Shown here one piece after another: positions 49,910 to 63,790 of a stretch of DNA of 64,000 nucleotides (position 1 is the stretch's first letter; the number at the start of each line of letters is the position of its first letter). Below the pieces are notes generated by a model that saw nothing but the letters and a program-made list of their open reading frames with translations, was not told the DNA's origin and searched no databases. This stretch comes from Bradyrhizobium sp. 200 (GTDB taxonomy: Bacteria > Pseudomonadota > Alphaproteobacteria > Rhizobiales > Xanthobacteraceae): contig NZ_CP064689.1 in the NCBI RefSeq assembly GCF_023100945.1, forward strand, positions 372,001 to 436,000. Direction: 5' to 3'. Made by a program: the position numbers and the translations under genes.

Positions 49910-49922
49910 GCCTAATTAGGGC
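49910..49922. other. attL core of the integrated element
   Basis: GCCTAATTAGGGC is repeated exactly at 63778-63790. The centre CCTAATTAGG is a perfect palindrome. The bases differ on both sides, so 13 bp is the shared core. It lies in the intergenic region between the ldt gene and accA, not in a tRNA. Joining the flanks gives a plausible uninterrupted attB. Confidence 0.85.
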
Positions 49923-50015
49923 TTTTGATACCGGGCTTTAGCTGCTATAAACCATTGAAATCACTAGCTTATTGTCTACTGGTGACTTCGCCTGTACATA
50001 GCTGATTACGGCTGT

Positions 50016-50036
50016 CCGGGACACCGCCGGGACACC
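50016..50036. promoter_or_regulatory. Tandem integrase arm-type sites, left end
   Basis: CCGGGACACC occurs at 50016-50025 and 50027-50036, an 11-bp period close to one helical turn. It is 94-114 bp inside attL and just before the integrase ATG. The same tandem lies at the right end, in the same orientation. ATTGAAATNNNTAG is also shared near both cores (49954 and 63755). Confidence 0.6.
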
Positions 50037-50054
50037 ACACAGGGACGCCACCCC

Positions 50055-51296
50055 ATGTCGAACATCACGACGAAGACCGGACGACGCGATTTGAAACCTG
50101 CAAAGAAGGCTTATTTCCGAACGGTCGCGCCCGGGCTGGCGCTCGGCTACCGCCGCACCGTGACCGGGGCGGGGCGCTGGGTTGTCCGCCGGGCGGACGG
50201 CCGGGGCGGGAACACGGTTCTGAACCTTATGACGACCAAAGCCCCGATCCGCCCCGTTGTGGCCGACGATATCGACCCGGCGAACGGCTTCGATGTGATG
50301 GACTTCGGGCAGGCACAGGCGGCGGCGGGCGGGCCGTCGCGGTCCGGCGCGTCGTTCACTGTCGAAGACGCCGTCACCTTCTATTTGAAAACGAGGGCGG
50401 CCGAAGGCCGGAACATCGCGTCGTCGGAGGGCAAGGCGGAAGCTTGGATTCTGCCGACCCTTGGAACCATCGAATGCGCTGACCTGACCCGCGAACAGAT
50501 TCGGGATTGGCTCGCAGGCATCGCCGCGACGCCGCTGGCGGGCTCGAAAGAGCCGGACCCGGAAGTCCGGGCCAAGCGCCGCCGGGCGACCGCTAACCGC
50601 GTCCTGACCGTGCTGAAGAGCGTCTTGAACGTGTGCCACGCCGAACGCAAGATTGCGTCCGACTCCGAATGGCGGAAGCTCAAGCCCCTGAAGAATGCGA
50701 AAACGGTGCGCGACCGCTGGCTGTCCCTGTTCGACTCGCAACGGCTGGAACGGGCTTGCGTCGGCGACTTCAGGACGTTGGTCAAGGCGGCGCTTCTGAC
50801 CGGCGCACGCTACGGCCAATTGTGCGAAGTGCAGGTGAAGGACTTCGACGCGGCGAGTGCGACGCTGCGGTTGGAGTCCGCCAAGGGTAGCAGCGGCGAA
50901 ACGAAGGAATATCGCGTTTTCCTGAATGCCGAAGCGGTCGCGTTCTTCACGACGCTTTGCGCCGGGCGCAACAACGCGAACGCGCTGATTTTCACAAACG
51001 AGGGCGAAGCGTGGAAGGACGGCGAGCAAATCCGTTTGGTTAACGCCGCCTGCGATTCCGCCGGAATCGCGCCGCGCATCACGTTCCATGGGTTGCGCCA
51101 TACATATGCCAGCCTGTCGCTTCAGGCGGCGAAGCCGATGACATTGCTAGAACTGGCGATGAATCTAGGGCACGCCAACACAAAGCAGGTGGAAGAGACT
51201 TACGGCCATCTGGCGGCGGCCCATCGCCGCGAAGCCGCGAGCGCGGCCCCGTCGTTCGGCTTCACGGCGGATTCCAACGTGGTCGCCCTGCGATAA
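50055..51296 (+). CDS. int: Tyrosine recombinase/integrase
   Basis: A 413-aa site-specific recombinase. An N-terminal arm-binding domain (LKPAKKAYFRTVAPGLALGYRRTV...GRWVVRR) leads to a core-binding domain at about 100-190. The catalytic domain shows Arg in LLTGARYGQLCEVQVKDF (about 250), HxxR in HGLRHTYASLSL (about 346), and the nucleophile Tyr in NLGHANTKQVEETYGHL (about 383). All catalytic residues are present, so it is probably active. It directs excision and integration between attL and attR, likely helped by the next protein. The adjoining arm sites and its place at the end of the island fit. Confidence 0.94.
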   Translation: MSNITTKTGRRDLKPAKKAYFRTVAPGLALGYRRTVTGAGRWVVRRADGRGGNTVLNLMTTKAPIRPVVADDIDPANGFDVMDFGQAQAAAGGPSRSGASFTVEDAVTFYLKTRAAEGRNIASSEGKAEAWILPTLGTIECADLTREQIRDWLAGIAATPLAGSKEPDPEVRAKRRRATANRVLTVLKSVLNVCHAERKIASDSEWRKLKPLKNAKTVRDRWLSLFDSQRLERACVGDFRTLVKAALLTGARYGQLCEVQVKDFDAASATLRLESAKGSSGETKEYRVFLNAEAVAFFTTLCAGRNNANALIFTNEGEAWKDGEQIRLVNAACDSAGIAPRITFHGLRHTYASLSLQAAKPMTLLELAMNLGHANTKQVEETYGHLAAAHRREAASAAPSFGFTADSNVVALR

Positions 51297-51302
51297 TATT
51301 TT

Positions 51303-51314
51303 CAACGTTACCTG
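51303..51314. repeat. CAACGTTACCTG repeat, copy 1
   Basis: The 12-mer CAACGTTACCTG occurs here just after the int stop and again at 62942-62953 near the other end, in the same orientation. It contains the palindrome AACGTT. It may be a regulator binding site. Confidence 0.4.
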
Positions 51315-51528
51315 GGTAAGTGGCCGTCAATTGATGTATACCGGCGGCGGCTTCGAAAGCTGACACGGTCCGCCCCCGCGAGTGGAAGGGGCGGGCATAG
51401 GCTTCGCGGCTCGCCCTACGGCAGAACGGCCCCGCGTTCTCGCGGCTACCCCGTTTTCGGCATTTGCCCTGCGCGTCCGAATCCCCGTCGCCTGTCCAGC
51501 GTGGCACGCGGCAACCGGACGCTGCGCG

Positions 51529-51726
51529 ATGTCTGCCGACTCCGACTACGATTCCAAAACATTCACGATTCAACAAACCGCTGACGACGAACTGCATTGC
51601 AGCCGCGCGTTCGTTAACAAGCTTTTGCGCACCGGCAAGCTCGAACATTCTAAAGTCGGCTCGCGTGTCATCATTCGCGGCCGTGCCATTCGCAAATTGC
51701 TGGATGACTCGGCGGTGCAGTCATGA
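51529..51726 (+). CDS. Excisionase/AlpA-like helix-turn-helix protein
   Basis: A 65-aa protein beginning MSADSDYDSKTFTIQQTADDELHCSRAFVNKLLRTGKLEHSKVGSRVIIRGRAIRKLL. This is the pattern of small excisionase-family DNA-binding proteins: a short helix-turn-helix (TADDELHCSRAFVNKLLRTG) and a wing (KLEHSKVGSRVIIRG). It is likely the recombination directionality factor. The frame is open to 51382, but ATG 51529 gives the usual length. It overlaps the next small ORF by ATGA. Confidence 0.75.
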   Translation: MSADSDYDSKTFTIQQTADDELHCSRAFVNKLLRTGKLEHSKVGSRVIIRGRAIRKLLDDSAVQS

Positions 51727-51857
51727 CGCCGCCCGCCACGCTGGAAATTGCGCGCCGCCGCGTCGTCGAAGAACTTGTTCAACGCGAACTGGCAAAGCTG
51801 ACGCCAAAGGAACGCAGACGCTTGCGCTTGACGCTTGAAGATAAGCGCGGGCGGTGA
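51723..51857 (+). CDS. Small basic ORF (44 aa), unknown
   Basis: The ATG at 51723 overlaps the preceding stop (ATGA) and the frame runs to TGA 51855-51857. The product is MTPPATLEIARRRVVEELV followed by a helical, basic QRELAKLTPKERRRLRLTLEDKRGR (Arg/Lys-rich). Coupling and amphipathic look support a real gene. No family recognised. Confidence 0.5.
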   Translation: MTPPATLEIARRRVVEELVQRELAKLTPKERRRLRLTLEDKRGR

Positions 51858-51863
51858 CGTGTC

Positions 51864-52334
51864 ATGGCGAAACACTCCCCAATTGACGACGCCGTGGCCG
51901 AATTGCTCGCGACGAATTCACTGCACGCGCTCGCGGACCTTGTCACCAACCCCGAAATTGCCGAACGGATTCGCGGCAAACGAATCGGCGATCCTTCACG
52001 CGATCAAACAATGGTGCAGGGACGCGCGACTGTGATTCTGTTGCGTGATGAAATCGGCGAGACGCGCCTCGGCGTTTTGAGCCGATGCATCGCATCGATT
52101 CATTACGGAAACCCCGACTATAGCGGGACAGTCCTCAACAAAATTCTTTCTGGCTCGCTGAAGACGGGCGCGCTTGCAGCAGAAGCCCGAGAACTCGCGA
52201 ACTGGCTTCGTGAATCCCCGACCTACATGCGACGCCTTCGCGACGTTCACGCACAATTCGCAGCCGCAAAGACGACACCCATTTTCGTGGGCGCCAAATC
52301 TTTGGGTGTTTCCAGCGACGATGACGACGTCTAG
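51864..52334 (+). CDS. Unknown element protein (156 aa)
   Basis: An alpha-helical, hydrophilic protein beginning MAKHSPIDDAVAELLATNSL. It contains LRDEIGETRLGVLSRCIASI and ends in an acidic SSDDDDV. No membrane segment and no known motif. It is in the same transcription direction as its neighbours and 6 bp from the previous stop, so it is part of the int-xis transcript or the following set. I cannot name a function. Confidence 0.65.
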   Translation: MAKHSPIDDAVAELLATNSLHALADLVTNPEIAERIRGKRIGDPSRDQTMVQGRATVILLRDEIGETRLGVLSRCIASIHYGNPDYSGTVLNKILSGSLKTGALAAEARELANWLRESPTYMRRLRDVHAQFAAAKTTPIFVGAKSLGVSSDDDDV

Positions 52335-52376
52335 TTCTCTCAAAACAGAATTCAAACCCAACGAAGGAATGAGACC

Positions 52377-53336
52377 ATGGAAATCTACGAAGTCCCCGTC
52401 GGCGACGGAATTCAGCCGCTCTCCAATCGCGAACGCTTCGAAGAAATGTTTCCGCACATCGTCCCCATCATCGCGGACGAAGAGACGTTGCGCGCGGAAG
52501 ATCAAAATAGTTACGCGGCCCACGAAACGGCGCTGAATGCGCACCGCGTCGCCATGGCTGAGAATGGCCATATGCTCTACGTCGAACAGAACTCGCCGCA
52601 CAGATCGAAAAAGCGCGAGGACCGCTTGATGAAAGAAGAGGAGAATCTGAAAGCGAAGCGGGCAGAGATCGACCGCCGCTGGGATGATTATCGGAGCAAT
52701 CGACCGGGCTCCATGATGAACGCTTTCGCTGAATTCTTTTCATCGAACGCGGCGCATCATCGATACAAGGTGGCGAACACCACAGACGAACTTCAGCCGG
52801 GCAAGACGGCACCGGAAATGGTCGCCCATTATCGCGACCTGTGGCGGACGAAATTCGCCGATCGTAAAGCCATTGCCACAGCGCCGCAGTCCCGTGCGGA
52901 GATCGAATCCGATATTGCCAGCGGCGTCTCGCGGTGCGCAGCCAAGCTGCAGATGGCGGTCAACGGCGTTCGCCGTGTCACCGTCAGCGAAAAAATGGAC
53001 TCTTTCACGTCGCGCGGACTGCATCTGCCGCGCCTCTCGATCGCCGACGCAAATGGAATCGTGACTTACGTACCCGACGCCATGGGCGTGATGGCCGCGT
53101 TGTTTGGTCCCGAAATGGTCGACAGGTTGAGCGCGATGGCGCTGGCGAATCACAATGACGCGGAAGCGCTGGATGCTTTCGAACGTGGTCGCAGACTGAA
53201 TCAAGTAAATGCCGAGATTCGAGATATCGAATACCGGGCCGCCTACTGGCATCGCGTAGCTCGTGGTCAGGGCTCCAATCCCGGCGGGCGCGTCAGCGTC
53301 AACGTCCTCGCCGCGCTAGATTTGGTCCGCGCTTAA
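52377..53336 (+). CDS. Unknown element protein (319 aa)
   Basis: A 319-aa protein with a charged central helix (KKREDRLMKEEENLKAKRAEIDRRW, about 78-102) that may be a coiled coil. It continues FAEFFSSNAAHHRYKVANTT and GLHLPRLSIADANGIVTYVPDAMGVMAALFGPEMV. No known domain is evident. GAAGGAATGAGACC precedes ATG 52377. A perfect 12-bp inverted repeat (53342-53377) follows its stop. It could have a role in packaging or replication control, but that is not supported by motif. Confidence 0.65.
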   Translation: MEIYEVPVGDGIQPLSNRERFEEMFPHIVPIIADEETLRAEDQNSYAAHETALNAHRVAMAENGHMLYVEQNSPHRSKKREDRLMKEEENLKAKRAEIDRRWDDYRSNRPGSMMNAFAEFFSSNAAHHRYKVANTTDELQPGKTAPEMVAHYRDLWRTKFADRKAIATAPQSRAEIESDIASGVSRCAAKLQMAVNGVRRVTVSEKMDSFTSRGLHLPRLSIADANGIVTYVPDAMGVMAALFGPEMVDRLSAMALANHNDAEALDAFERGRRLNQVNAEIRDIEYRAAYWHRVARGQGSNPGGRVSVNVLAALDLVRA

Positions 53337-53341
53337 AGTTT

Positions 53342-53377
53342 CGCCTGCGCATGGTTTGCCTTTCACATGCGCAGGCG
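53342..53377. terminator. Hairpin after the 319-aa gene
   Basis: CGCCTGCGCATG at 53342-53353 is fully complementary to CATGCGCAGGCG at 53366-53377, with a 12-nt loop. No T run follows. It lies 6 bp after the stop and may attenuate transcription. Confidence 0.5.
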
Positions 53378-53603
53378 GATCGCGGCGGGCGGTTGGGGAG
53401 ACCGTCCGCCGCACCCGAAATTCTGCCAAGGATTTTCTTTTGTTTACCTTGGTGGCTACCCCGCGGCCGCCATCGCAGGGGGACGCGAAGGGGGCCTGTG
53501 TCGTGACGATGGAAAAAGCCAATCCCCGGCGAAGGTTTAGGACCATTTAAGCAACATAGGCCTCCGAGCGTTTTTGTTCAAACCAACTAGAAGGAACACG
53601 AAC

Positions 53604-53948
53604 ATGAGTAACTTGGATTCGATACAGACTACGCCGCTTCAACGAGTGTATCGCGAGGCGAGGCGCGTCGCAGGCAAACACGCAACAACGATGGTGCTGA
53701 TCGCGAACGGCGCACGCAGCGGGTTTCTACCGGAGGTGCCGCCCGCCAATCTCGCAAAGTGCATGGCGGCGCTTCAGAAGCTGATCGACGGCGAGTCCGC
53801 AGGCACCGACGCCAAGCGAGTCGATGACGACTTCAGCGAAATCCGCGAGAAGGCATATGGCACGCGCGAGCGGCCCAAGACGCCGCAGCGTCTTGACCCG
53901 CGAGAAATTTACGCCCGGTGGAACAATCCGCCCTCGGCTGAGGACTAG
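53604..53948 (+). CDS. Unknown element protein (114 aa)
   Basis: Start ATG 53604 has AGAAGGA upstream. It reads MSNLDSIQTTPLQRVYREARRVAGKHATTMVLIANGARSGFLPEV then a helix NLAKCMAALQKLIDGES, and a basic, Pro-rich end. No membrane segment. It begins a run of four closely spaced small genes (53604-55092). No family recognised. Confidence 0.65.
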   Translation: MSNLDSIQTTPLQRVYREARRVAGKHATTMVLIANGARSGFLPEVPPANLAKCMAALQKLIDGESAGTDAKRVDDDFSEIREKAYGTRERPKTPQRLDPREIYARWNNPPSAED

Positions 53949-54006
53949 CCAAACGGGCGACTCCACAAGAGTCGCTGCTCCCCACAAATCTTTTGGAGAT
54001 TCAAAA

Positions 54007-54372
54007 ATGAGCAAAGACACACAACCGCCCCTAGTAGGGTCGTCGCGAATCCGAATGCTCGCCATGTCGTTTGGATCGACAGATGGCACCATCGAAGGCG
54101 TCGCGAATCGATTCGACCGCGCCCGCCTTCAAGCGCGCATCCGTTTCGAGGAAAGAGAAGCGGAGAATCGCAGGCGCGAGATTTTGTTCGATAGCGGCTC
54201 GCCTGATGGTTCGTTCGAACGCCTTCCCGCGGCCAAGCGGGAGGCCGCGCTACTGAAGGCGCGTCGAGCCCATGCTGACATGCACGCGGCCAGCCGCGAC
54301 GCAATGCGGCACCCCGCCCTTCTGCGCAGCAGGATGGCAACATTTTTGAACCCGTTCGCAGAGGAGGATTGA
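54007..54372 (+). CDS. Unknown element protein (121 aa)
   Basis: GGAG stands 8 bp before ATG 54007. The product has a helical, charged middle (FDRARLQARIRFEEREAENRRREILFD) and SFERLPAAKREAALLKARRAHADMHAASRDAM. It ends NPFAEED. It is soluble and probably coiled. The stop is 3 bp before the next gene. Function unknown. Confidence 0.65.
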   Translation: MSKDTQPPLVGSSRIRMLAMSFGSTDGTIEGVANRFDRARLQARIRFEEREAENRRREILFDSGSPDGSFERLPAAKREAALLKARRAHADMHAASRDAMRHPALLRSRMATFLNPFAEED

Positions 54373-54375
54373 GAA

Positions 54376-54750
54376 ATGGCGGACCCGACAAAACGTGCTC
54401 TGGCTGTCAATGAAGCCAGAATTCAGTTTCTAAGACTTTTTCACGGTGCAACGGATGAACTTTCCGACGACTCCGTACCAGCAGGGAAGCGCGAGAACTT
54501 CAAAGGGCATCTTGAGCACCACCGCGAATTCACCGCGCGATGGTTTGAGGAAGCTTGCAATTATTTCGGCGCATCTGATGGCACATGGAAAACCGTGCCC
54601 GAGCGGCGACAAGCTGACGCTCTCCGCTACTTGGGCTGGAAAATCGCAGAACACGACAATCGGTGCCAATTCGAGCTTGATCTCTTGAAGATCAAACTTG
54701 AAGAGCAGGCCGAAGAAGCGGCGATGGAAGACGAATTGGATTTCGGGTGA
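54376..54750 (+). CDS. Unknown element protein (124 aa)
   Basis: It begins MADPTKRALAVNEARIQFLRLFHG. HREFTARWFEEACNYFGASDGTWKTVPERRQADALRYLGWKI lies in the middle, and the tail is acidic (LEEQAEEAAMEDELDFG). The pattern is alpha-helical without membrane segments. It is 3 bp from both neighbours, suggesting one mRNA. Not recognised. Confidence 0.65.
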   Translation: MADPTKRALAVNEARIQFLRLFHGATDELSDDSVPAGKRENFKGHLEHHREFTARWFEEACNYFGASDGTWKTVPERRQADALRYLGWKIAEHDNRCQFELDLLKIKLEEQAEEAAMEDELDFG

Positions 54751-54753
54751 ATC

Positions 54754-55092
54754 ATGCCCCGCCGTCTTCCACCCGACCTTTCGGACGAATATTTGATTGC
54801 GCTCGCGAGTCAGACGCTTTGCCGCTATCGCGCGGCACATCGTCTGGCGTCGCACGTGCAGCGCCTTACGTGGCTAACCGACGTGCGAGTCTTCCTTCAG
54901 AATGCATGGCCTCTCGATTGCCCGAGTTGGCGCGTGGCCTGCATTGTCAACGAGGTCTTGTATTGGCACCGGCACAAGAATCAATCGCTTCCAGATGCGC
55001 TGGCGTCGGCGCGACGAACGCTAAGGCTGAAGCGCCAAATCGCACGGGGCTTGAACGCATCTAATTTTCTAAGGTCGCTCCCCAACGACTGA
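54754..55092 (+). CDS. Unknown element protein (112 aa)
   Basis: Short basic, Trp- and Leu-containing protein beginning MPRRLPPDLSDEYLIALASQTL, with HRLASHVQRLTWLTDVRVFLQNAWPLDCPSWRVACIVNEVLYWHRHK. It stands directly before the large primase gene, after a 66-bp gap. A regulatory or primase-accessory role is possible from position only. Confidence 0.6.
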   Translation: MPRRLPPDLSDEYLIALASQTLCRYRAAHRLASHVQRLTWLTDVRVFLQNAWPLDCPSWRVACIVNEVLYWHRHKNQSLPDALASARRTLRLKRQIARGLNASNFLRSLPND

Positions 55093-55158
55093 CAAAAAGA
55101 AATCCCCGGCAGCGATAGCGAGTCGCGGCCGGGGGTCAGAAGGTAAGGAGTCGAGAAA

Positions 55159-57702
55159 GTGAATATGCATCAAAAGCCTCCGGCGGACAAAGGAACGTGG
55201 AATGCGGCCCGGAAGCGCGACCTGTTTCGCTACAATCCCAAGCAAATCGATCTGATTCCGCTGCACAAGCCAAAAGCCAAGATGACCCTCCCCAATGGCA
55301 CGGTCAGGGAGATAGGCAAGGCCCCTCTACATGCGAAATGGACAACCAAGGCCTATGACAGCAAGGCCGTCCGGGATGCCGCCTTGGCCGAAGGGCGCAA
55401 TGTGGGGGTGCGTCTGAAGGCCGATCAACTCGTTATCGACGTCGACCCGCGCAATGGGGGTGAGGCCGGATTCGCCTCTCTATGCCACGATATTGGCTTC
55501 GATGCTGACGCCTTCCCGCGCGTCTACACAGGTTCGGGTGGATGGCATTGCTATATGAGCAAGCCCGCCGACGTGCTGGTCAGGGACACGCTCGAATCGG
55601 AAGAATACAACGGCGTGGAATTCAAATCTAAGGGCCGCCAAGTCGTCGCCGCCGGTTCGATCCATCCCAACGGCAAGCCCTATCGATGGTCGAAAGACCA
55701 TCCTGCCATTGAGGACGGCTTGCCGAAAATTCCGGCTGCGCTATTGCGCGTCATCAAGCGCCCGCCGCGCAGCGCCGTTGCAGGCGGCGGGCAATACAGC
55801 CCTTCTCAGATTGCCGAAGCGCTCGCAAAGCTGGACGTCAGCAATTACGACTCCAATGATAGCTGGCTCAATCTGATGATGGCTTGCCACCATGCGAGCG
55901 CAGGCGACGCACGACAGGAGTTCGTCGATTGGTCTACGTCCGACCCCACATACGCGAAAGACGCGTTCATCATCGGCAAGCGTTGGGACTCGCTGCACGC
56001 CGAACGCAATGACGGCGTGACCTTCAAAACCTTGAACGCAGAGCTACGCAAGGCGGGCGCTGCGTCGTCACAGGTCGCACACGTCGCCGACGATGAATTC
56101 CCGGATGACCAACCCGGCGCGGCCGAAGAGTTCGACGCTATGAAAGATGAGGACGATGACGACGGCTGGCTTAATGGCGAGAAGGAACCGCCGAAGTCGC
56201 ACGCATACACTGAAACGAAGCTTCCCGCGCTTCTGGACTACGCCGAAAAGTGCATGATCGACCAAGGCGCGCCGTTGTATCAGATGGGCGGCCGTCTAGT
56301 TCATCCCGTCCGCGTCGATAAAGACTCGGCAGATGACGAATCGATTCGACGCAAGGCGGGGTCTCTGACCATCGGCGAAGTGAATCAGCATCGCTTGCGC
56401 GAATACATCATCGACAACGTGCCGTTTCACAAGTCCGACAAGAAAGGCAAGCCGACCAAATACGCCGCGCCCATGGGCTTCGCTGCGCACTATCTGGCGC
56501 GCGGCGACAAGTGGCGAATCCCGAATATCAACGGCGTGATTGAAACGCCGACGCTGCGTCGTGATGGCACCATTATCGACTGCGATGGCTATGATGCGAA
56601 GTCTGGGCTCTTGCTGGATATGGGCGGCGTCGAATTTCCGGAAATACCGGACCGGCCGACGCGTCCGCAGGCGCTAGAAGCGCTCGCGCTGATTAAAGAG
56701 CCGTTCGCGGGCTTCCCGTTCGTCACGAATGCCAAGGGTCTAAGCGCGAGTCGGTCGGTCATGCTGTCGGCCGTGCTGACCGCGCTGGTTAGGCGGACGC
56801 TGCATTCCGCGCCTATGCACGGCACAAGCGCGCCGACCATGGGCACGGGCAAGACATTGGCGATTGACGTTGTGTCGCTGATCGCCACGGGCCGCCTAAC
56901 AACGGCAATGAGCCAAGGCGCGAACGAAGAGGAAGACGAAAAGCGACTCTTCAGCGTGCTACTGCAAAACGATTTGATTCTGCTAATCGACAACGTGAAG
57001 CGGCCCGTTGAAGGCGATGCGCTTTGCACCGTCTTGACGCAATCGACGTGGCAATCGCGAATCCTGGGCGAGAGTCGAAAGGTCGAAGTCCCGACTAACG
57101 CGCTGATGATGGCAAGCGGCAATAACCTGACCTTCAAGGGCGATATGACGACGCGTTCGCTTCTCTGTCGCATGGATGCGAAGATGGAGAACCCGGAGAC
57201 GCGCCGATTCAAAATCGATCTGAAGACATGGGTTCCGAAACACCGTGTTGCCTTGGTCGTCGCGGGTTTGACCGTGCTGCGTGCGTTCGTCGTTGCAGGT
57301 CGCCCCGGCCTTGATAAGCTGACGCCGTTCGGTCGCTTCGAAGATTGGTCAAACCTTGTGCGCGGCGCGCTGGTATGGTTGGGCGAGCCGGACCCGTGCA
57401 AGACTCGGGCGTTCATCGCGACCGATGACCCCGAACATAATGACCTTGGCCAATTGCTCGCGGCTATTAAGGACAATGCGGGCGACGAAGAGCACACGGC
57501 GAGCGAGCTAATCAAGATGGGGGAGGAATGCTCCGACAGCGTCTTGACCGACGCGATAGAGAACGCGGTGCATCGGCCCAACGCGAAAATATTTGGCCAC
57601 TACCTGCACGCGCGCAACGGCAAGATATTGGAAGGGCTGCGGTTGGTCGGCAGGTACGACAAACACGGCAAGGTGTGGCGATATCGCGTTCGGGACGCCT
57701 GA
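55159..57702 (+). CDS. Primase-polymerase with phage-type ATPase/helicase domain (replication protein)
   Basis: An 847-aa protein. The N-terminal prim-pol (AEP) domain, about residues 60-180, has LVIDVDPRNGGEAGF, with the DxD metal site near 93, then YTGSGGWHCYMSKP and VEFKSKGRQVVAAGSIHPN. A PriCT-like domain follows (NYDSNDSWLNLMMACHHAS...). After about 400 comes a P-loop ATPase: TMGTGKTLAIDVVSL near 560, then NDLILLIDNVKRP near 606. This pairing is the usual replication protein of phages and satellites. GTG 55159 has GGAG 8 bp upstream; ATG 55165 is the alternative. A helicase-loading or origin-binding role is inferred. Confidence 0.88.
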   Translation: MNMHQKPPADKGTWNAARKRDLFRYNPKQIDLIPLHKPKAKMTLPNGTVREIGKAPLHAKWTTKAYDSKAVRDAALAEGRNVGVRLKADQLVIDVDPRNGGEAGFASLCHDIGFDADAFPRVYTGSGGWHCYMSKPADVLVRDTLESEEYNGVEFKSKGRQVVAAGSIHPNGKPYRWSKDHPAIEDGLPKIPAALLRVIKRPPRSAVAGGGQYSPSQIAEALAKLDVSNYDSNDSWLNLMMACHHASAGDARQEFVDWSTSDPTYAKDAFIIGKRWDSLHAERNDGVTFKTLNAELRKAGAASSQVAHVADDEFPDDQPGAAEEFDAMKDEDDDDGWLNGEKEPPKSHAYTETKLPALLDYAEKCMIDQGAPLYQMGGRLVHPVRVDKDSADDESIRRKAGSLTIGEVNQHRLREYIIDNVPFHKSDKKGKPTKYAAPMGFAAHYLARGDKWRIPNINGVIETPTLRRDGTIIDCDGYDAKSGLLLDMGGVEFPEIPDRPTRPQALEALALIKEPFAGFPFVTNAKGLSASRSVMLSAVLTALVRRTLHSAPMHGTSAPTMGTGKTLAIDVVSLIATGRLTTAMSQGANEEEDEKRLFSVLLQNDLILLIDNVKRPVEGDALCTVLTQSTWQSRILGESRKVEVPTNALMMASGNNLTFKGDMTTRSLLCRMDAKMENPETRRFKIDLKTWVPKHRVALVVAGLTVLRAFVVAGRPGLDKLTPFGRFEDWSNLVRGALVWLGEPDPCKTRAFIATDDPEHNDLGQLLAAIKDNAGDEEHTASELIKMGEECSDSVLTDAIENAVHRPNAKIFGHYLHARNGKILEGLRLVGRYDKHGKVWRYRVRDA

Positions 57703-57706
57703 CCCG

Positions 57707-57870
57707 GTTTGCGGGTATGCGGGGTCTGCGGGTACGATTCCAGCCTACCGGGCCTTCGTATCCACTCTCTGTTTTTTAGGATTCGTTTCTCGAAATAGAA
57801 TCTAGAATGATTATGCTCAATAGGCCGCATGGGCTGGAATCGTACCCGCAGACCCCGCATACCCGCAAAC
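57707..57870. repeat. 39-bp perfect inverted repeat, origin-like, behind the primase gene
   Basis: The left arm is 57707-57745 and the right arm 57832-57870, each 39 bp and fully complementary, starting GTTTGCGGGTATGCGGGG and ending GGTACGATTCCAGCC. Each arm contains three TGCGGGKN-type units (TGCGGGTA, TGCGGGGT, TGCGGGTA). The 86-bp spacer is AT-rich in parts. Iterons, palindromic layout and position beside a primase-polymerase gene are what a satellite origin or Rep-binding site looks like. A transcription attenuator is another reading. Confidence 0.7.
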
Positions 57871-58224
57871 GGGTATCCCCTCTCTATGGTCCCGAATGCA
57901 GGGGCCATGCCCCTACTATCCGCTCGCACGTCATGCGTGGAAGCGTCCGGCAGCGCTGAAAGCGCCCTATCACGTCGGCTGGCGAGTCTTGCTTATATCC
58001 TTTAAGCTTCAAGTATCTATTTCTCATAACCCGAAACGTTGCACGTGCAGCTAATCCACCTGTGCGCATTCACTCACGATAACAATTCGACGGCCATCGA
58101 ACTATGATGGTGCACCTATTAGCAATGCCTGCAGATGCAATATGCAATGCATGGCAAGGCCCGGGGTGGGGGGTGCCACCTGCCACACTGAAGAATCGGA
58201 ATCGAAATCTTCGAAGCACTAAGA

Positions 58225-58343
58225 GAAATATTTTCCAATGTGCATGGTTAAGAAATATTTTCTAGGTTCTTCCAGCGCGAAAAACGCTATGAGGGAAAAG
58301 ACGGAGCGCATTTCATCGCTGCACGTCTTAAGAAATATTTTTC
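58225..58343. promoter_or_regulatory. Triple AAATATTT-type operator before RHH-Mom gene
   Basis: GAAATATTTTC occurs at 58225-58235 and 58252-58262, and GAAATATTTTTC at 58332-58343. TTAAGAAATATTTT is identical in the last two copies (58248 and 58328). The half-sites are near-palindromic and lie 55-175 bp before ATG 58398. A ribbon-helix-helix protein such as the one it precedes would bind tandem short palindromes, so autoregulation is a fair inference. Confidence 0.5.
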
Positions 58344-58397
58344 TTCACGATCAACGGTCCGCTTTGCCGCGATCCTCGAATCCGATACACCGCGCGG

Positions 58398-59228
58398 ATG
58401 GGGAAAATCGGTAAGACCGGAATCAAAAAAGGTAAGACCAAAAAGCGGGGCCGACCGGCGACCGGCCGCGACCCGTCCGTGACGATTCGACTCCCGGCGT
58501 CGTTGTTGGAATGGCTGGACTCGCGAGCGGACAAGGGACGTTCGGACGCCATCCGTCGATTGTTGGAAGAGTCCCGGCTTCGGCACGCGTCGCGACAACA
58601 ACGCAAGCGTGGCCCCGTGGCAGCCGTCGCCGCTCCCCTTCAGTTGGTCACGGCCGAAGAGGCGAACGCTATGCTTGCCGGGCGTCACTATCTTGGAGCG
58701 CTCGAATACCCGCCGCGATTCTGCATCGCGACTCCAGAACGCGACGCCGTCGCGATCTATTCGCCGCCGGTCGCGTCGCACTTCAAGACGATTCCGAATT
58801 TCAAACCGTTGGAGCTTGCCCGGCTATGGCAGGCAGATGACGCTGATCGGCCGCTATCGCAATTTCTTGCGGCGTCACTGCGATGGCTGCGCCAGCTTGG
58901 CCCCGAAGTGGATTGCGTCTTCAGCTACGCGGACCCGGCGCAAAAGGACAACCGCACCAAGCGCCCGCACAATGGGACCATCTATCAGGCGACGAACTTC
59001 GCTTATGTCGGCCAATCGCGCGCAACCGACTATTGGCGAACGCGGGGCGGCGAAATCATTTCCTCGCCGGTCTGCTATCGGCGCTTCAAGACGAAGAGCC
59101 GCGAGAAGATTCAGGCGCTGAATCCAAAATGGAAGCTTCTGCCCGGCGAACCAAAGCGACTCTATGTGTATGGTTTGCGACGAACGGCCGCTGAAGTGGT
59201 TGCCCTAATAAAGGGGCGATACGCCTGA
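58398..59228 (+). CDS. Ribbon-helix-helix protein fused to a Mom-like (GNAT-type) DNA-modification domain
   Basis: A 276-aa protein. A basic N-terminus (MGKIGKTGIKKGKTKKRGRP) precedes a CopG-type ribbon-helix-helix (DPSVTIRLPASLLEWLDSRADKGRSDAIRRLLEES, about 26-62). From about residue 85 comes a domain of the phage Mu Mom type: CVFSYADPAQKDN near 174, then HNGTIYQATNFAYVGQSRATDYW near 190-212, and a C-terminal PKRLYVYGL. Mom converts adenine in DNA to a carbamoylmethyl form, shielding it from restriction. The DNA-binding RHH is unusual and may target it to specific sequences. Whether it modifies DNA is inferred from the motif. It lies between the replication module and terS. Confidence 0.72.
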   Translation: MGKIGKTGIKKGKTKKRGRPATGRDPSVTIRLPASLLEWLDSRADKGRSDAIRRLLEESRLRHASRQQRKRGPVAAVAAPLQLVTAEEANAMLAGRHYLGALEYPPRFCIATPERDAVAIYSPPVASHFKTIPNFKPLELARLWQADDADRPLSQFLAASLRWLRQLGPEVDCVFSYADPAQKDNRTKRPHNGTIYQATNFAYVGQSRATDYWRTRGGEIISSPVCYRRFKTKSREKIQALNPKWKLLPGEPKRLYVYGLRRTAAEVVALIKGRYA

Positions 59229-59319
59229 ATCGACGTGCGCGGAATCGTTCCTTTTGAGCAGGGCGCGCCAAACGCTACACTCCCCTTCGGACAGTTCGAA
59301 CCCTGCGAAGAGGACCCCC

Positions 59320-59883
59320 ATGGCAAAACAGATTCCGAATTGGCTTGATGGCGGATCAGCCGACGACGACGAACCCGGCCCCGGCGCAATCGTCGATAAG
59401 CGACGACTCGGCCACGTCTTGGGACTGACGCCCTACGCCATCGGCGAAATGATCAATCTCGGAATGCCAGTCAAACGCCGCGGGGACAAGCACACGCCTT
59501 GGGAATTCGAGGTAGGCCGCGTGATGGCGTGGATGGTGGAAGACGCCGTCCGAACCATGAGCGAGGACTCCGACACTGCCAGATATCGCGAGGCGAAGCG
59601 CGCAAAGATGCAAGCGGAATTTGAACGACTGAAAGATGGGAACGACGCCACACGCCGCGAGCTAGTCAACATCGACGACGCCGTGACCGTGCTACGCGAG
59701 AACGCGGACATTGTGCGCAAGCATCTAGGCGCGGTCCCGGCCTCGATCACGACGGCGCTCGCTGCGCTGAATCCAGAAGATCGCCGCAATGCGTCCATCG
59801 TGGAGTCCTTGGTCGACGATTGCATCAACGCCGCGATGGTCGCTATCAGTGAAGAGGGAGTCGAACATGCCGAAGCAGCATAA
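59320..59883 (+). CDS. Small terminase subunit-like (Nu1-type) protein
   Basis: A 187-aa protein from ATG 59320 with AGGA upstream. Residues about 25-70 form a helix-turn-helix: VDKRRLGHVLGLTPYAIGEMINLGMPVKRRGDKHTPWEFEVGRVMAWMV, the Nu1/terS DNA-recognition pattern. The rest is helical: ARYREAKRAKMQAEFERLKDGNDATRRELVNIDDAVTVLRENADIV. In lambda-type phages Nu1 picks the cos site. A lone small terminase is a hallmark of satellites that redirect helper packaging; no large subunit is seen here. Its last 17 bp overlap the next gene. Confidence 0.65.
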   Translation: MAKQIPNWLDGGSADDDEPGPGAIVDKRRLGHVLGLTPYAIGEMINLGMPVKRRGDKHTPWEFEVGRVMAWMVEDAVRTMSEDSDTARYREAKRAKMQAEFERLKDGNDATRRELVNIDDAVTVLRENADIVRKHLGAVPASITTALAALNPEDRRNASIVESLVDDCINAAMVAISEEGVEHAEAA

Positions 59884-60082
59884 CAAATCAAAGGGCGGAA
59901 GGCCCAACGTGTTAGGAAAGGGCGCGGCTTACCTCACGGTAAAGCTGCGCGAGGATCAGATTCGCGCGATCAATCGAATCGCGTGTCCGGGCGGCAGGCC
60001 GGGCGGTCGTCCCGAGACAATCCGCAATTTGCTGGACGCCGGACTCAAAATCGCTCGCGCTAGGATTGCTCGCGCACGATGA
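59867..60082 (+). CDS. Small ribbon-helix-helix-like protein (71 aa)
   Basis: A basic N-terminus (MPKQHNKSKGGRPNVLGKG) is followed by AYLTVKLREDQIRAINRIACPGGRPGGRPETIRNLLDAGLKI, which reads as a strand and two helices of a CopG/RHH-type regulator. It overlaps the terminase gene by 17 bp and the zinc gene by 4 bp (ATGA), so the three are translated as a unit. Likely a DNA-binding regulator of the element; target unknown. Confidence 0.65.
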   Translation: MPKQHNKSKGGRPNVLGKGAAYLTVKLREDQIRAINRIACPGGRPGGRPETIRNLLDAGLKIARARIARAR

Positions 60083-60603
60083 CGACTCGAAAGATCATAC
60101 CGGCCCGACCGTGTGCCGTCTGCGGCAAAGACTTTGTGCCGCCGCAGCGTAACTTTTTCTGTTGCGCGCCCAAATGTAGCGCCGACTACCAGCGCGCCAA
60201 ACGTAGAGCAAGCGAAGCACGCCGACCGCACGTGATCCGCGATTGCCTTCGGTGCGGCAAGCCGATGGAAGTTCGCAGCCGAAAATCAGGTAACAAACTT
60301 TATTGCAGCGCGGAGTGCAAGCTTCCACCGCTTGCCCCCGTGGCCGATGGCGTGCCGTGTCGGCATTGCGGGCGACCATTCGCGAAAACGGGCAGGAGAA
60401 TTTATTGCAGCGCGGAGTGCCGCGTCGCGCATTTCAAATTGCTGCACGACGAAGGCGAAGAGATTCCCGTGGTGGATATCGACGAAGCGCCGCGTCGGCT
60501 CGCGGTCGCAAAGTTGTTCGACAAATTCGAATGCAACGGCGCGTTCGATCACTTCACGCCGCCGCAATGGATCAACCCGGCCGACCGGCGTGCGAGTCGC
60601 TAA
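60079..60603 (+). CDS. Zinc-knuckle protein with three CxxC clusters (174 aa)
   Basis: Three repeats are visible: CAVCGKDFVPPQRNFFCCAPKCSADY, CLRCGKPMEVRSRKSGNKLYCSAECK and CRHCGRPFAKTGRRIYCSAECRVAHF. Each is CxxC...CxxxC-like, a treble-clef or knuckle able to bind one zinc. The C-terminus is acidic then aromatic (FECNGAFDHFTPPQWIN). Proteins with this repeat occur near terminases in phages and may act as DNA- or protein-binding factors. Function unknown. The ATG overlaps the previous stop. Confidence 0.7.
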   Translation: MTTRKIIPARPCAVCGKDFVPPQRNFFCCAPKCSADYQRAKRRASEARRPHVIRDCLRCGKPMEVRSRKSGNKLYCSAECKLPPLAPVADGVPCRHCGRPFAKTGRRIYCSAECRVAHFKLLHDEGEEIPVVDIDEAPRRLAVAKLFDKFECNGAFDHFTPPQWINPADRRASR

Positions 60604-60703
60604 TCTTGGAATCACGCGGCTATCGACGGTTCGTCCATTCCGGCCTGATATTCGCGTCCGCCTCTTCGTTGGCAAGACATTCGTAAGTGTCTGTATCGCA
60701 CGG

Positions 60704-60889
60704 TTACTTCGTCTTCGCCGCCTTCTCACGCTGTCGTCGTTGCGCGAGTTCGCGCAAGCTCTGCGGTTCCCGTTCGCCTTCAATCTCTTGTGGCGGCTGA
60801 ATGAAGCGACCGCCGCGAAGCCGCCGAACCACTCCCGCGATGACGCATATCGCGAGCAGCACTAGAATTCCGATGATAAATTTGAGCAT
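60704..60889 (-). CDS. Small single-pass membrane protein (61 aa)
   Basis: MLKFIIGILVLLAICVIAGVVRRLRGGRF gives one membrane helix, then a basic, helical tail SLRELAQRRQREKAAKTK. The start overlaps the stop of the DUF2971 gene by one base (TAATG on the minus strand), so it is co-translated with it. A small membrane partner next to a DUF2971 gene suggests a two-part system. Confidence 0.6.
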   Translation of the reverse strand: MLKFIIGILVLLAICVIAGVVRRLRGGRFIQPPQEIEGEREPQSLRELAQRRQREKAAKTK

Positions 60890-61848
60890 TAGACCGGCCT
60901 ATATGGAATCGTCGAACGTCGAATCGGCGCGTTGATTTTGAATTTATCTAGCAAGGCGCGAACGCCCTCTTCTGTTCCGAGCGGCGCGGCCGGGCCGATG
61001 ACGATTTCGACGATGTTGCCCGGAGTGTGAAGCGGCAATTGACGCGGGATATATGGGACGACTTCTCCCTTTCGGATGCGAACAGGGACTCGGCCTTTGA
61101 AGAGTTTCGAAAGCCCGAGAATAATCAGCCGGACTTCATTCTCTGATTTATACGCGGGATGCTTGCAAACAAGACAGTTCCAAATCAGCGGCGACGCTAT
61201 GACATACCGCGCAAGGTTATCGAGAAACTGACGCAGGATTTTTCCGTTGTTTAGATGTTTGCTGGCGTACCATTCGGACTTCGCCAGAATATCATGCGCC
61301 TTTTTGATCGGCATTGCTTGCCGTCGCTTCGTCGCGGCGTTGTCATAGACGATGGGGCCGACGACTAGGTTTTTCAACGGGTCTTTATCAAGTGGGTCGT
61401 CAGGCGCGAACAGTTTGGGCGACAGGCCAAGGGCAAAGCCGCGACCATTGTCGGCGTATGCACGCCACTGGCCTAGTTCGTCGCGGTCGCGGCTGAAGCT
61501 CGCAATAAAAAACCTGATATGGTCCGAAAAATTGTCGATAGAAAACATCCCGCCGAGCATCGCGTAGAAGTGCTTTATCCAAGACGCGCCTGCGACTCCT
61601 TTTGCAATGACGCCGTGCGCGAGGTTCATGCCGTGACTAAGTTCGCTAGGGTCATTGAGGTAGCGGAAATCTGTGAACCAAATTTCCTGATTCTCAATGA
61701 TCCCCTTTAGGCCATTTGCATCAGTGTAGTGATACAGCGGTTTTTGAATCGCGTGCCGCCTCTCGACAGACCGCATGTAACGGTCGGCCCAAGCGTTATA
61801 GTCTTCGATGGCACCTTGCAGCGTATGCGGCAGTTCTGCCTTCGGCAT
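60889..61848 (-). CDS. DUF2971 protein
   Basis: A 319-aa protein. The DUF2971 signature is at about residues 35-65: PLYHYTDANGLKGIIENQEIWFTDFRYLNDPSELSHG. It continues FIASFSRDRDELGQWRAYADNGRGFALGLSPKLF and YKSENEVRLIIL. The family is widespread in mobile elements and defence loci but has no settled function. Base use is clearly lower in GC than the chromosome. It reads opposite to the main element genes, as cargo usually does, and forms a two-gene operon with the small membrane protein. Confidence 0.85.
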   Translation of the reverse strand: MPKAELPHTLQGAIEDYNAWADRYMRSVERRHAIQKPLYHYTDANGLKGIIENQEIWFTDFRYLNDPSELSHGMNLAHGVIAKGVAGASWIKHFYAMLGGMFSIDNFSDHIRFFIASFSRDRDELGQWRAYADNGRGFALGLSPKLFAPDDPLDKDPLKNLVVGPIVYDNAATKRRQAMPIKKAHDILAKSEWYASKHLNNGKILRQFLDNLARYVIASPLIWNCLVCKHPAYKSENEVRLIILGLSKLFKGRVPVRIRKGEVVPYIPRQLPLHTPGNIVEIVIGPAAPLGTEEGVRALLDKFKINAPIRRSTIPYRPV

Positions 61849-61945
61849 TCGCGCTGACCCCGTGCGTCCCGGTTGTGACCCTATACATTAGAAAAAAAAA
61901 TCCGACGCGATGGCCGGACGTTTTGTCACCATTGTCGGGTTAGAA

Positions 61946-62206
61946 TCAGTGCGTGGTTAGCGGGAGGACTTCCACGGGGCCGTGCGGGTCGTTCGTCCAG
62001 CCCGGACCGTGCGGCGACGGAATCGCGGGGCGCTTTTCTAAATAGTATTCCGATTGTGGGTCGTCGCTGAGTCGAAACAGCGGCACCGGCGCATTGATCC
62101 CACGCAAGTAGGCCGATACCTGATTGATCGCATCTTGATCGTCCGGCCCTAACGCATTTGCGAGATCAGTCAAATGAGGGTGCCGCCGCAACGTATACAT
62201 AAACAT
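61946..62206 (-). CDS. Hypothetical protein (86 aa)
   Basis: From ATG 62206 (MFMYTLRRHPHLTDLANALG) the frame reads DDQDAINQVSAYLRGINAPVPLFRLSDDPQSEYYLEKRPAIPSPHGPGW and ends EVLPLTTH. A longer frame starts at 62278, but AAGGTC stands before 62206. No family is recognised. It is of moderate composition and opposite to the main element direction, as in cargo. Could be a small cargo protein. Confidence 0.5.
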   Translation of the reverse strand: MFMYTLRRHPHLTDLANALGPDDQDAINQVSAYLRGINAPVPLFRLSDDPQSEYYLEKRPAIPSPHGPGWTNDPHGPVEVLPLTTH

Positions 62207-62415
62207 GGTGTGACCTTTCGAGTCGTGGCTGCAATCGATCATCGGACAAAAATGCCAACTGTCAAGGCGCGTAGCCAAGTCCGAACTTAGCCACTCACGC
62301 CCTTATGGTAGTTGATGACGTGCCGTCAGACCAATAGCGGAATCGCGAGTGTTGTTTTCGACGCCACGGCATGGCGCGATGTTGCGCCCCTTGCAGCGTG
62401 CGAGTCGAATCGCAC

Positions 62416-62840
62416 AATCCCTTGCGTCGGGAACAACTTCGCACCGCGACCGGCGGGGGTGGATAGATCGCAAGTCGAATCGCGTGCATTAGGATGTTGA
62501 CTCTTGTTCGTTCGTTGCTGCCAAATAGAGGCGGCGCTCGCCCTAGCTTATGGGGGCTGATCGCACAGCGCAGGGTGCAAACATGAAGCGAGCATGCATG
62601 GCCGCGTGTGATGCGGCAGTTCACTACAAGCCGAGGAAGGGCGGTTATCGACGCCGCACGATGGCTCGTGGATTCAAGCCGGTTAGAGCAAAACGCCGTA
62701 AGTAGAATCGCGGTGAGGGAACGCCGCAACGGTTCTCGCGCAGCCCGGCGCGCCCGCCGAAATAGCAATCCGCCGCCGGTCCTGACTCAGTAAATATACC
62801 ATCCCTTGCGTTCGGAACAGCATCGCGCCGCGACCGGCGG
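62416..62840. repeat. Imperfect 40-bp direct repeat
   Basis: ATCCCTTGCGTCGGGAACA at 62417 reads on to TCGCACCGCGACCGGCGG; the second copy at 62801 reads ATCCCTTGCGTTCGGAACAG then CATCGCGCCGCGACCGGCGG. About 34 of 40 positions agree. The copies are 385 bp apart, in the same orientation. Confidence 0.6.
62583..62705 (+). CDS. Small highly basic ORF (40 aa)
   Basis: ATG AAG CGA opens a 40-codon frame: MKRACMAACDAAVHYKPRKG followed by GYRRRTMARGFKPVRAKRRK. About a third of the residues are Lys or Arg. GGTG lies upstream. A short nucleic-acid-binding peptide is possible. It is too short to be certain. Confidence 0.35.
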   Translation: MKRACMAACDAAVHYKPRKGGYRRRTMARGFKPVRAKRRK

Positions 62841-62941
62841 CGTGTGTGGAAAGGTTTGACGGGCGAATCGCATCCGCACGGGCGAAAGGCAAACCACATT
62901 AACCAGCTAAGCTCTTGCTCGGCCGCGCTATTAAAAATTTC

Positions 62942-62953
62942 CAACGTTACCTG
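62942..62953. repeat. CAACGTTACCTG repeat, copy 2
   Basis: Identical to 51303-51314, in the same orientation, 60 bp before the 176-aa gene. See copy 1. Confidence 0.4.
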
Positions 62954-63003
62954 ACAACTCCGATCAATCCGGCTGTATCAATCGCGATAGATCGGACTCC
63001 CCG

Positions 63004-63534
63004 ATGAGCACAGTGGAAGCGAAAGGCGAAACGATGACCGACAAGAAACCGTCCCGGCTGGCACAGGCGCTCGCCAAATATTCGCCCGAAGAACTGGACG
63101 CACGCTACCGGCTTCCCATAGAAGGGGCCGCGCCGAAGCCCGCAAGACGCCGCGTAATACGGCCGGTCAAGGCAGCCGCGCCAATGAAATCCCGCAAAGC
63201 CCGAATCGCTGCGGCGCTCGCGATCAAGGCCGCCGCTATGCGCGTCATCGAATCCGAAGGCGAGCATATGAAGGCCGGTCCGCAGATTCCGATTGTCAGC
63301 GCTCGGTCCAAGGGGCTGAATATCGTTTACACGCCCAACGTTCCCGCGCCCGGTCCGCGCATGGTCGCGTGGCAGGCGGCTAACGGCATCGCGCCGCCGC
63401 CCCCGCTGACCGATCTTCTGGACGTGTGGCCGGTGGGTTCGAACAAGGTGTTTTCGATGCGCTGGAACGCCGCCGGGTTGGTCGAAGTCGGGACCTTCAA
63501 ACGCGGCGAGTGGGAAGCGACGCTGACCGGATAG
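63004..63534 (+). CDS. Unknown element protein (176 aa), last gene of the island
   Basis: A basic N-terminal half (MTDKKPSRLAQALAKYSPEELDARYRLPIEG, APKPARRRVIRPVKAAAPMKSRKARIAAAL) precedes a Pro-rich middle (NVPAPGPRMVAWQAANGIAPPPPLTDLLDVWPVG) and SMRWNAAGLVEVGTFKRGEWEATLTG. No family is recognised. ATG 63004 or 63034 (AAAGGC upstream) may be the start. A terminator hairpin follows. Position next to attR suggests a regulator or cargo protein. Confidence 0.6.
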   Translation: MSTVEAKGETMTDKKPSRLAQALAKYSPEELDARYRLPIEGAAPKPARRRVIRPVKAAAPMKSRKARIAAALAIKAAAMRVIESEGEHMKAGPQIPIVSARSKGLNIVYTPNVPAPGPRMVAWQAANGIAPPPPLTDLLDVWPVGSNKVFSMRWNAAGLVEVGTFKRGEWEATLTG

Positions 63535-63559
63535 CGCCGCGACCTATCGACGACCGCGA

Positions 63560-63588
63560 AGGCCCGCCCCGACCGGCGGGCTTTTTCA
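63560..63588 (+). terminator. Rho-independent terminator after the 176-aa gene
   Basis: GCCCGCC at 63562-63568 pairs with GGCGGGC at 63575-63581 and is followed by TTTTT. It lies about 30 bp after the stop and separates the element from accA. Confidence 0.78.
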
Positions 63589-63720
63589 TGCCCGGCCGCC
63601 AGCGCCAGCCGCGCCCGTCGCGTGGTCGCCGTCCGCCGGGACGTTGGGGCCGCCAGCGGGTCGCCCCTGTACTGGCTCGCCTGCGGCTTCTGGCGTGGGG
63701 TCAAAAAGGGCCTAATCTAC

Positions 63721-63740
63721 CCGGGACACCACCGGGACAC
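63721..63740. promoter_or_regulatory. Tandem integrase arm-type sites, right end
   Basis: CCGGGACACC at 63721-63730 and CCGGGACAC at 63732-63740 repeat with the same 11-bp period as at the left end, 37-57 bp inside attR. Confidence 0.6.
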
Positions 63741-63777
63741 TTCGCGCCTAACCTATTGAAATTATTAGAAATAAATA

Positions 63778-63790
63778 GCCTAATTAGGGC
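63778..63790. other. attR core of the integrated element
   Basis: GCCTAATTAGGGC matches attL exactly. The outer flank leads into the accA 3' region after about 98 bp. A partial core-like GGGCCTAAT also occurs at 63708-63716. Confidence 0.85.

Follow-up and report, generated by a model that had tools for sequence, protein, structure and literature searches.

A Mom-family enzyme with a predicted ribbon-helix-helix head in a satellite-type element of Bradyrhizobium sp. 200

The DNA analyzed here, referred to as the window, is a stretch of 64,000 nucleotides from Bradyrhizobium sp. 200 (contig NZ_CP064689.1, positions 372,001 to 436,000); all coordinates below count from its first letter. It contains a gene whose product joins an AT-hook-like and predicted ribbon-helix-helix (RHH) head to a DNA modification enzyme of the Mom family, located within an integrated element with a satellite-type gene set. 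The Mom enzyme of phage Mu shields DNA from the defenses of bacteria. The main new information, read from protein sequences, is that one Mom enzyme occurs with several kinds of nucleic-acid-binding-like attachment, at either end of the chain. As an explanation of the gene, we propose, with a probability of about one half, a satellite Mom acyltransferase that is held on DNA by a dimerizing RHH/AT-hook head and protects packaged DNA.

The fusion gene and its Mom domain

58398..59228, plus strand: RHH-Mom fusion gene (list of open reading frames, PHROG and Pfam matches)
58440..58577, plus strand: AT-hook-like (KKRGRPATGRDP) and predicted RHH head, residues 15-60 (phrog_4738, RHH_1 over the cut-off in P0007, model, conservation)
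58638..59192, plus strand: Mom-family GNAT domain, residues 81-265 (PHROG, Pfam, profile and fold comparison)

An original prediction, made from the letters of the window, had described an open reading frame (ORF) with the motif SYADP...HNGTIYQATNF, and both were confirmed in the sequence. The ORF is intact, starts with ATG, encodes 276 amino acids and occupies exactly 58398-59228 on the plus strand, as earlier noted. The Mom-type enzyme part had been placed from residue 85, which is about right (residue 82 by phrog_1384). Pfam PF25680 “Mom” matches residues 119-265 with 63.3 bits (cut-off 27.1), and phrog_1384 “Mom-like DNA modification protein” matches residues 82-264 with E 2.4e-23. Mu Mom (PDB 8bv8) was matched by sequence with E 4.6e-4 and by profile A2 with E 2.7e-8. 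Membership in an unrelated GNAT family had been named as the outcome that would speak against the original prediction; in the fold search, the closest fold was that of Mu Mom, by a wide margin over other GNATs. The structural alignment to 8bv8 starts at residue 71, past the head, with 19% identity.

Across 13 diverse Mom members, R142, A178, D179, G193 and Y196 are invariant and S154 is conserved in at least 90%; the fusion protein was also aligned to 8bv8 at these positions. They fall under ELxR, AD, GxxY and the serine, which we take to be the active-site residues of Mom. Only S124 is named as inactive in the title of a structure entry, and S154 as its equivalent is our reading. By sequence and by fold, all membership tests that could be run place the fusion protein in the Mom family, and adenine modification is its predicted activity. 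Among six members read of one headless subgroup, Gly replaces the serine equivalent to S154 in five (P0015, P0018, P0019, P0021 and P0026), while P0016 keeps Ser.

The N-terminal head

Residues 15-60 contain KKRGRPATGRDPSVTIRLPASLLEWLDSRADKGRSDAIRRLLEES, which combines an AT-hook-like RGRP with a stretch whose residues follow the RHH pattern. The complete CopG-type head of the original prediction is borne out in part. In its favor, phrog_4738 “transcriptional repressor” matches residues 13-57 (E 1.2e-4), and Pfam RHH_1 scores 25.5 bits on the ortholog P0007, above its cut-off of 20.5; the fusion protein itself reaches 15.0 bits, below that cut-off. The scan of the other orthologs, from which P0004 was left out, gave 13.1-17.8 bits for P0002, P0003 and P0005, with none listed for P0006. 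The structure prediction is similarly divided, since the monomer model contains helices at residues 34-43 and 48-70 (predicted local distance difference test, pLDDT, of 71-84 by block) but lacks the strand; the RHH ribbon requires a dimer. The PDB sequence search with the head alone returned four matches, none of them RHH (best E 0.18). No RHH chain appeared among the matches listed in the fold search of the fusion protein, where GNAT folds fill the lists and the head was barely tested. Taken together, sequence and model give moderate support to a CopG/RHH-type domain.

The head has a wide distribution of its own. Matches to the full-length fusion query were identified in 28 of 197 related genomes, the own genome included, and the places listed were confined to residues 3-93 save for the gene itself, G083 (residues 122-256) and one place in G030 (residues 53-154). 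The same GRPATGRDP head forms stand-alone open frames of 64-157 amino acids in many genomes of the genus. In P0050-P0054 and L003 it is fused to a peptidase domain of the M41 (FtsH-type) family that stands alone; the head preceding Peptidase M41 is over the RHH_1 cut-off in P0050 and recognized by likeness in L003.

Conservation of the fusion

The protein search (72 matches) and the alignment showed head and enzyme together in P0002-P0007. Residues identical to the window protein number 38/46 in the head, 139/185 in the enzyme and 6/20 in the linker for P0005, 33/46, 130/185 and 4/20 for P0006, and 32/46, 125/185 and 2/20 for P0007. Because the residues of head and enzyme are kept and those of the linker are not, the picture drawn by the alignment is of two constrained domains joined by a free linker.

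Among 397 genomes of the order, the only RHH-Mom locus was that of the window, and none was found in scans of other genome contigs and viral contigs. Mom genes were detected in 26 of 265 genomes of the genus, the own genome included, 23 of them over the cut-off. In the plus-strand matches whose upstream regions were read, no head was recognized, and a start codon is found close to where the Mom domain begins. Several of the genus matches are fragments. G317, G323, G114, G024 and others carry multiple copies and fragments of a headless Mom gene from another branch, which look as if they were spreading and decaying with some mobile element.

Attachments across the wider Mom clade

Protein searches yielded a clade set of 73 proteins, the one from the window included, drawn in part from the best 120 of 162 matches (7997 candidates scored). 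Head classes were assigned by regular expressions, and five rows without the HYLG motif were left uncounted (n=68). Judged by these sequence patterns and among the matches listed, some small DNA-binding-like module is present in 43 of the 68 members. These comprise an RHH head in 7, a C-x2-C/C-x3-C finger at the N-terminus in 6 and at the C-terminus in 9, and a winged-helix-like N-terminal domain in 21, where P0024 was classed from a short N-terminal piece. For P0075, the winged-helix reading rests on the predicted topology, with helices at 7-15, 25-32 and 38-54 followed by strands at 57-60 and 63-66 (block pLDDT 69-92); its fold search listed chain 3f8m (PhnF) at a probability of 0.57 and a root-mean-square deviation of 19.9. 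Another kind of fusion was observed in P0089, a single protein of 531 amino acids with a Mom domain and an MT-A70 adenine methyltransferase domain.

The repeated occurrence of varied heads argues for some benefit in keeping the enzyme on nucleic acid. That the heads of relatives are unrelated to one another suggests that anchoring to DNA is part of how this Mom branch works; the pattern is compatible with targeting, processivity and self-regulation alike.

The satellite-type element

49910..49922, unstranded: att repeat GCCTAATTAGGGC, left copy (identical 13-mer at 63778; five empty sites with one copy)
50055..51296, plus strand: tyrosine integrase (phrog_1 E 8.6e-44; Phage_integrase E 2.8e-13)
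55159..57702, plus strand: primase-polymerase with a C-terminal helicase-like region (Prim-Pol E 5.1e-20; PriCT_2 E 1.7e-12; phrog_29234 E 1.7e-111)
57896..58350, unstranded: conserved non-coding core of the satellite family (91% identity over 457 alignment columns to the mom-less sister)
59254..59883, plus strand, likely ATG start at 59320: small terminase subunit, terS (phrog_57 E 4.9e-12; Pfam Phage_Nu1 at E 0.07 only)
59867..60082, plus strand: second small RHH-like protein, GGRPNVLGKG... (RHH by eye, no Pfam match; 91% DNA identity to the sister)
60079..60603, plus strand: protein with three treble-clef-like zinc-finger motifs (phrog_1271 HNH part E 3.2e-12; Cys motifs read; homologues in the sisters)
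60889..61848, minus strand: DUF2971 protein, accessory gene and candidate defense (DUF2971 37.2 bits, cut-off 22; PADLOC candidate PDC-S31 E 2.5e-7)
63778..63790, unstranded: att repeat GCCTAATTAGGGC, right copy, where the chromosome resumes (flank comparison)

The original prediction had located the gene inside an integrative element, and the borders agree with this. GCCTAATTAGGGC is one of 11 repeats of at least 13 bases (two were of 15); its position next to the integrase led to its choice, which the flanks bore out. Of 60 genomes searched, five were examined at this site, and in all five the sequence left of the element, through 49922, meets the sequence right of it, from 63778, with an overlap of exactly 13 bp; each of these empty sites has one copy of GCCTAATTAGGGC. 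The element is a site-specifically integrated unit of 13.9 kb, from 49910 to 63790.

Its integrase, replication gene and terS, together with the lack of recognized capsid or tail genes among the scanned ORFs, form a satellite-type set. The phrog_29234 family is without an assigned function, and “helicase-like” was inferred from the layout. No capsid or tail family was found by PHROG and Pfam among the main ORFs scanned; many small ORFs were without a match and some short ones lay outside the scan, leaving room for an unknown structural gene. The region 57890-58400 had no match among 50,697 phage records.

A sister element in the same genome, near C1:33.4 kb (L036, L049), has the same gene order without mom. 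Among the matches listed, no mom-protein match was found in the sister elements (L053 was covered in part), and in the nine other genus genomes sharing the core the only Mom match, in G052, is weak and on another contig. Since it was not seen in the sister elements, mom looks like cargo of the satellite, inserted between the core and terS, where it stands at the head of the terS block. The terS-like protein of the sister near C1:33.4 kb is much shorter, and the accessory slot occupied here by the DUF2971 gene carries different genes in the sister elements.

A proposed tethered modifier

In the explanation that we prefer, a helper phage would induce the satellite and mom would be expressed at the head of the packaging (terS) block; because the gene heads this block, it is probably switched on at that moment. 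The RHH/AT-hook head, as a dimer, would keep the enzyme on DNA, preferring AT-rich sequence or showing loose specificity. Adenines in the bound DNA would then be acylated by the GNAT domain. Satellite DNA, plus any other DNA present, would be modified before packaging, and the packaged satellite DNA would resist restriction in the next cell. Both domains, the conservation of their fusion, the element borders, the gene order and the repeated attachment of nucleic-acid-binding-like modules in the Mom clade were computed; from these we infer the modification of adenine, its timing, the protection and a head that serves the enzyme in cis by binding DNA and is not a regulator.

Several observations weigh against this explanation. 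By patterns and among the matches listed, 25 of the 68 clade members are headless, so that the family can do without a head; this class includes P0089, the short piece P0092, and P0008 and P0083, which may be truncated at the start. Zinc-finger and winged-helix heads are without a Pfam match over the cut-off and are recognized by patterns and one model. Head-state changes are also few: a tree of 52 catalytic domains calls for 8 or more (9 with P0083 as its own state, 8 without), and therefore the 21 winged-helix proteins do not represent 21 events. The tree used 52 of 67 rows, with P0092-P0097 outside the set and 15 rows left out (P0008, P0010, P0020, P0025, P0028, P0036, P0038, P0040, P0044, P0048, P0049, P0074, P0078, P0090 and P0091); the RHH cluster that includes P0012 has a support of 94/87, below the starred level, with P0012 headless inside it. 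Finally, the Mu regulator Com binds mom mRNA through a zinc finger (PMC6483171), and heads may accordingly have a regulatory and not a targeting role. Mu Mom, itself headless, is said in PMC12926258 to act at specific recognition sites, which shows that site-specific action does not depend on a head.

Few enzymes of bulky DNA hypermodification are known, Mom among them, and the fusion gene extends its range from phages to a TerS-carrying satellite. The head-on and head-off proteins of the clade make the way in which a Mom enzyme is brought to the DNA that it marks directly testable. A generalization to the whole clade is tentative and rather doubtful. In it, interchangeable heads (RHH, winged helix, or a zinc finger at the N- or C-terminus) would determine the place, or the DNA, that is hypermodified, so that a mobile element could label DNA of its own with a bulky group on adenine. 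Such a clade would form a modular and retargetable counterpart to an enzyme that, in Mu, is so far known with no targeting domain of its own.

The AT-rich repeats and alternative explanations

58221..58234, plus strand: AT-rich repeat, copy 1 (repeat family D1)
58248..58261, plus strand: AT-rich repeat TTAAGAAATATTTT, copy 2 (repeat family D1; genome-wide motif count)
58328..58341, plus strand: AT-rich repeat TTAAGAAATATTTT, copy 3 (repeat family D1; genome-wide motif count)

The alternative that survives best, possible although clearly less probable than a tethered modifier, is autoregulation. The RHH dimer would bind an operator near its own gene and limit a potentially harmful modifier until induction, and the enzyme would find short sites unaided, like Mu Mom. 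RHH domains are classic autorepressors, and the stand-alone heads of the genus, as well as those before a peptidase (P0050, L003), are in line with such a role, as is the tight control of Mu mom by a separate zinc finger, Com. Furthermore, three copies of the AGAAATATTT repeats lie in 58221-58341, 57-177 bp before mom. With up to two mismatches, AAGAAATATTTT has 7 occurrences in the window where 0.96 would be expected, and TTAAGAAATATTTT with up to one mismatch has three sites in the 9.49-Mb genome, two here and one in the sister.

These repeats, however, belong to the satellite core, a segment of 455 bp directly 3' of the primase that is 91% identical in the mom-less sister and of which parts match 10 of 265 genus genomes, the own genome included. 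Of 11 elements, 10 have one or more AT-rich repeats in the 400 bp surrounding the core, among them L055, L057 and L058, in which terS was unseen; the 11 elements were picked by DNA likeness to the same core, so this sharing is partly by construction. The repeats were found upstream of none of the 24 other readable genes with the head, other operators lying outside this search. That count comes from GRP.TG in L002-L031, where L012, L026, L028 and L029 are without the pattern and L020 is without upstream DNA, leaving 25 informative genes including the own one. The C-terminal zinc fingers and the winged helices of relatives also fit autoregulation less well.

The idea that the head binds these upstream repeats is weakened by their presence in the mom-less sister and most related elements and their absence at the other head genes. 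The core is a putative origin, packaging site or promoter that is not specific to mom, and for its AT-rich repeats a replication origin or packaging site is as likely as a promoter; the R sites of lambda cosB offer a comparison for packaging-site repeats. Throughout the satellite family (L049-L058), the AGAAATATTT repeats accompany a common AACGCTATGAGGG...ACGGAGCGCA block, also where terS is unseen, as a candidate origin or packaging site.

The original prediction had instead proposed site targeting, in which the head binds satellite-specific sites and mainly the satellite's own DNA is modified. A complete RHH head, conserved about as well as the enzyme, and a repeat cluster almost unique in the genome would suit this idea, yet we consider it unlikely. 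The only candidate sites found for it, the AT-rich repeats, do not track the head across genes (absent at 24/24) and are also found in satellites where mom is unseen; moreover, restriction resistance would need the whole satellite to be modified, not one locus. Least probable is a neutral or decayed by-product, in which recombination placed a headless mom after a common RHH gene and the head is idle, for although the head is common enough in the genus to make an accidental fusion easy and P0012 is headless inside the RHH cluster, the ORF is intact and head and enzyme, but not the linker, are kept in six further clusters.

Comparison with known systems

The fusion protein described here differs from its best-known relative in architecture and in location. 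The match to Mu Mom (PDB 8bv8, “Methylcarbamoylase mom”; PF25680) begins only after the head. The mom gene of Mu is the last of the phage genome's genes in position, at its end, whereas the fusion gene adjoins terS in a satellite. In Mu, the control protein Com is separate from Mom (PMC6483171). The original prediction had held such a head to be undescribed. The literature searched, which did not extend to the main Mom papers, describes no Mom with a DNA-binding head. Mom domains of jumbo phages fused to restriction-endonuclease-fold domains are published (PMC7824862). These fusions resemble the present one in that a longer chain combines Mom with a second domain that acts on DNA; their partner is a predicted nuclease, in contrast to the small DNA-binding-type domain observed here.

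The GRPATGRDP-head proteins of the genus share the same AT-hook-like and RHH head with the fusion but are without the Mom domain and the upstream AT-rich repeats. Satellites of the phage-inducible chromosomal island (PICI) type are characterized by an integrase, a primase-helicase, terS, small size and accessory genes. The element resembles those PICI-type satellites that have their own small terminase in its integrase, primase-helicase, terS, size of 13.9 kb, lack of recognized capsid genes and accessory candidate defense gene; it differs in its own family-specific core 3' of the primase and in its Mom cargo.
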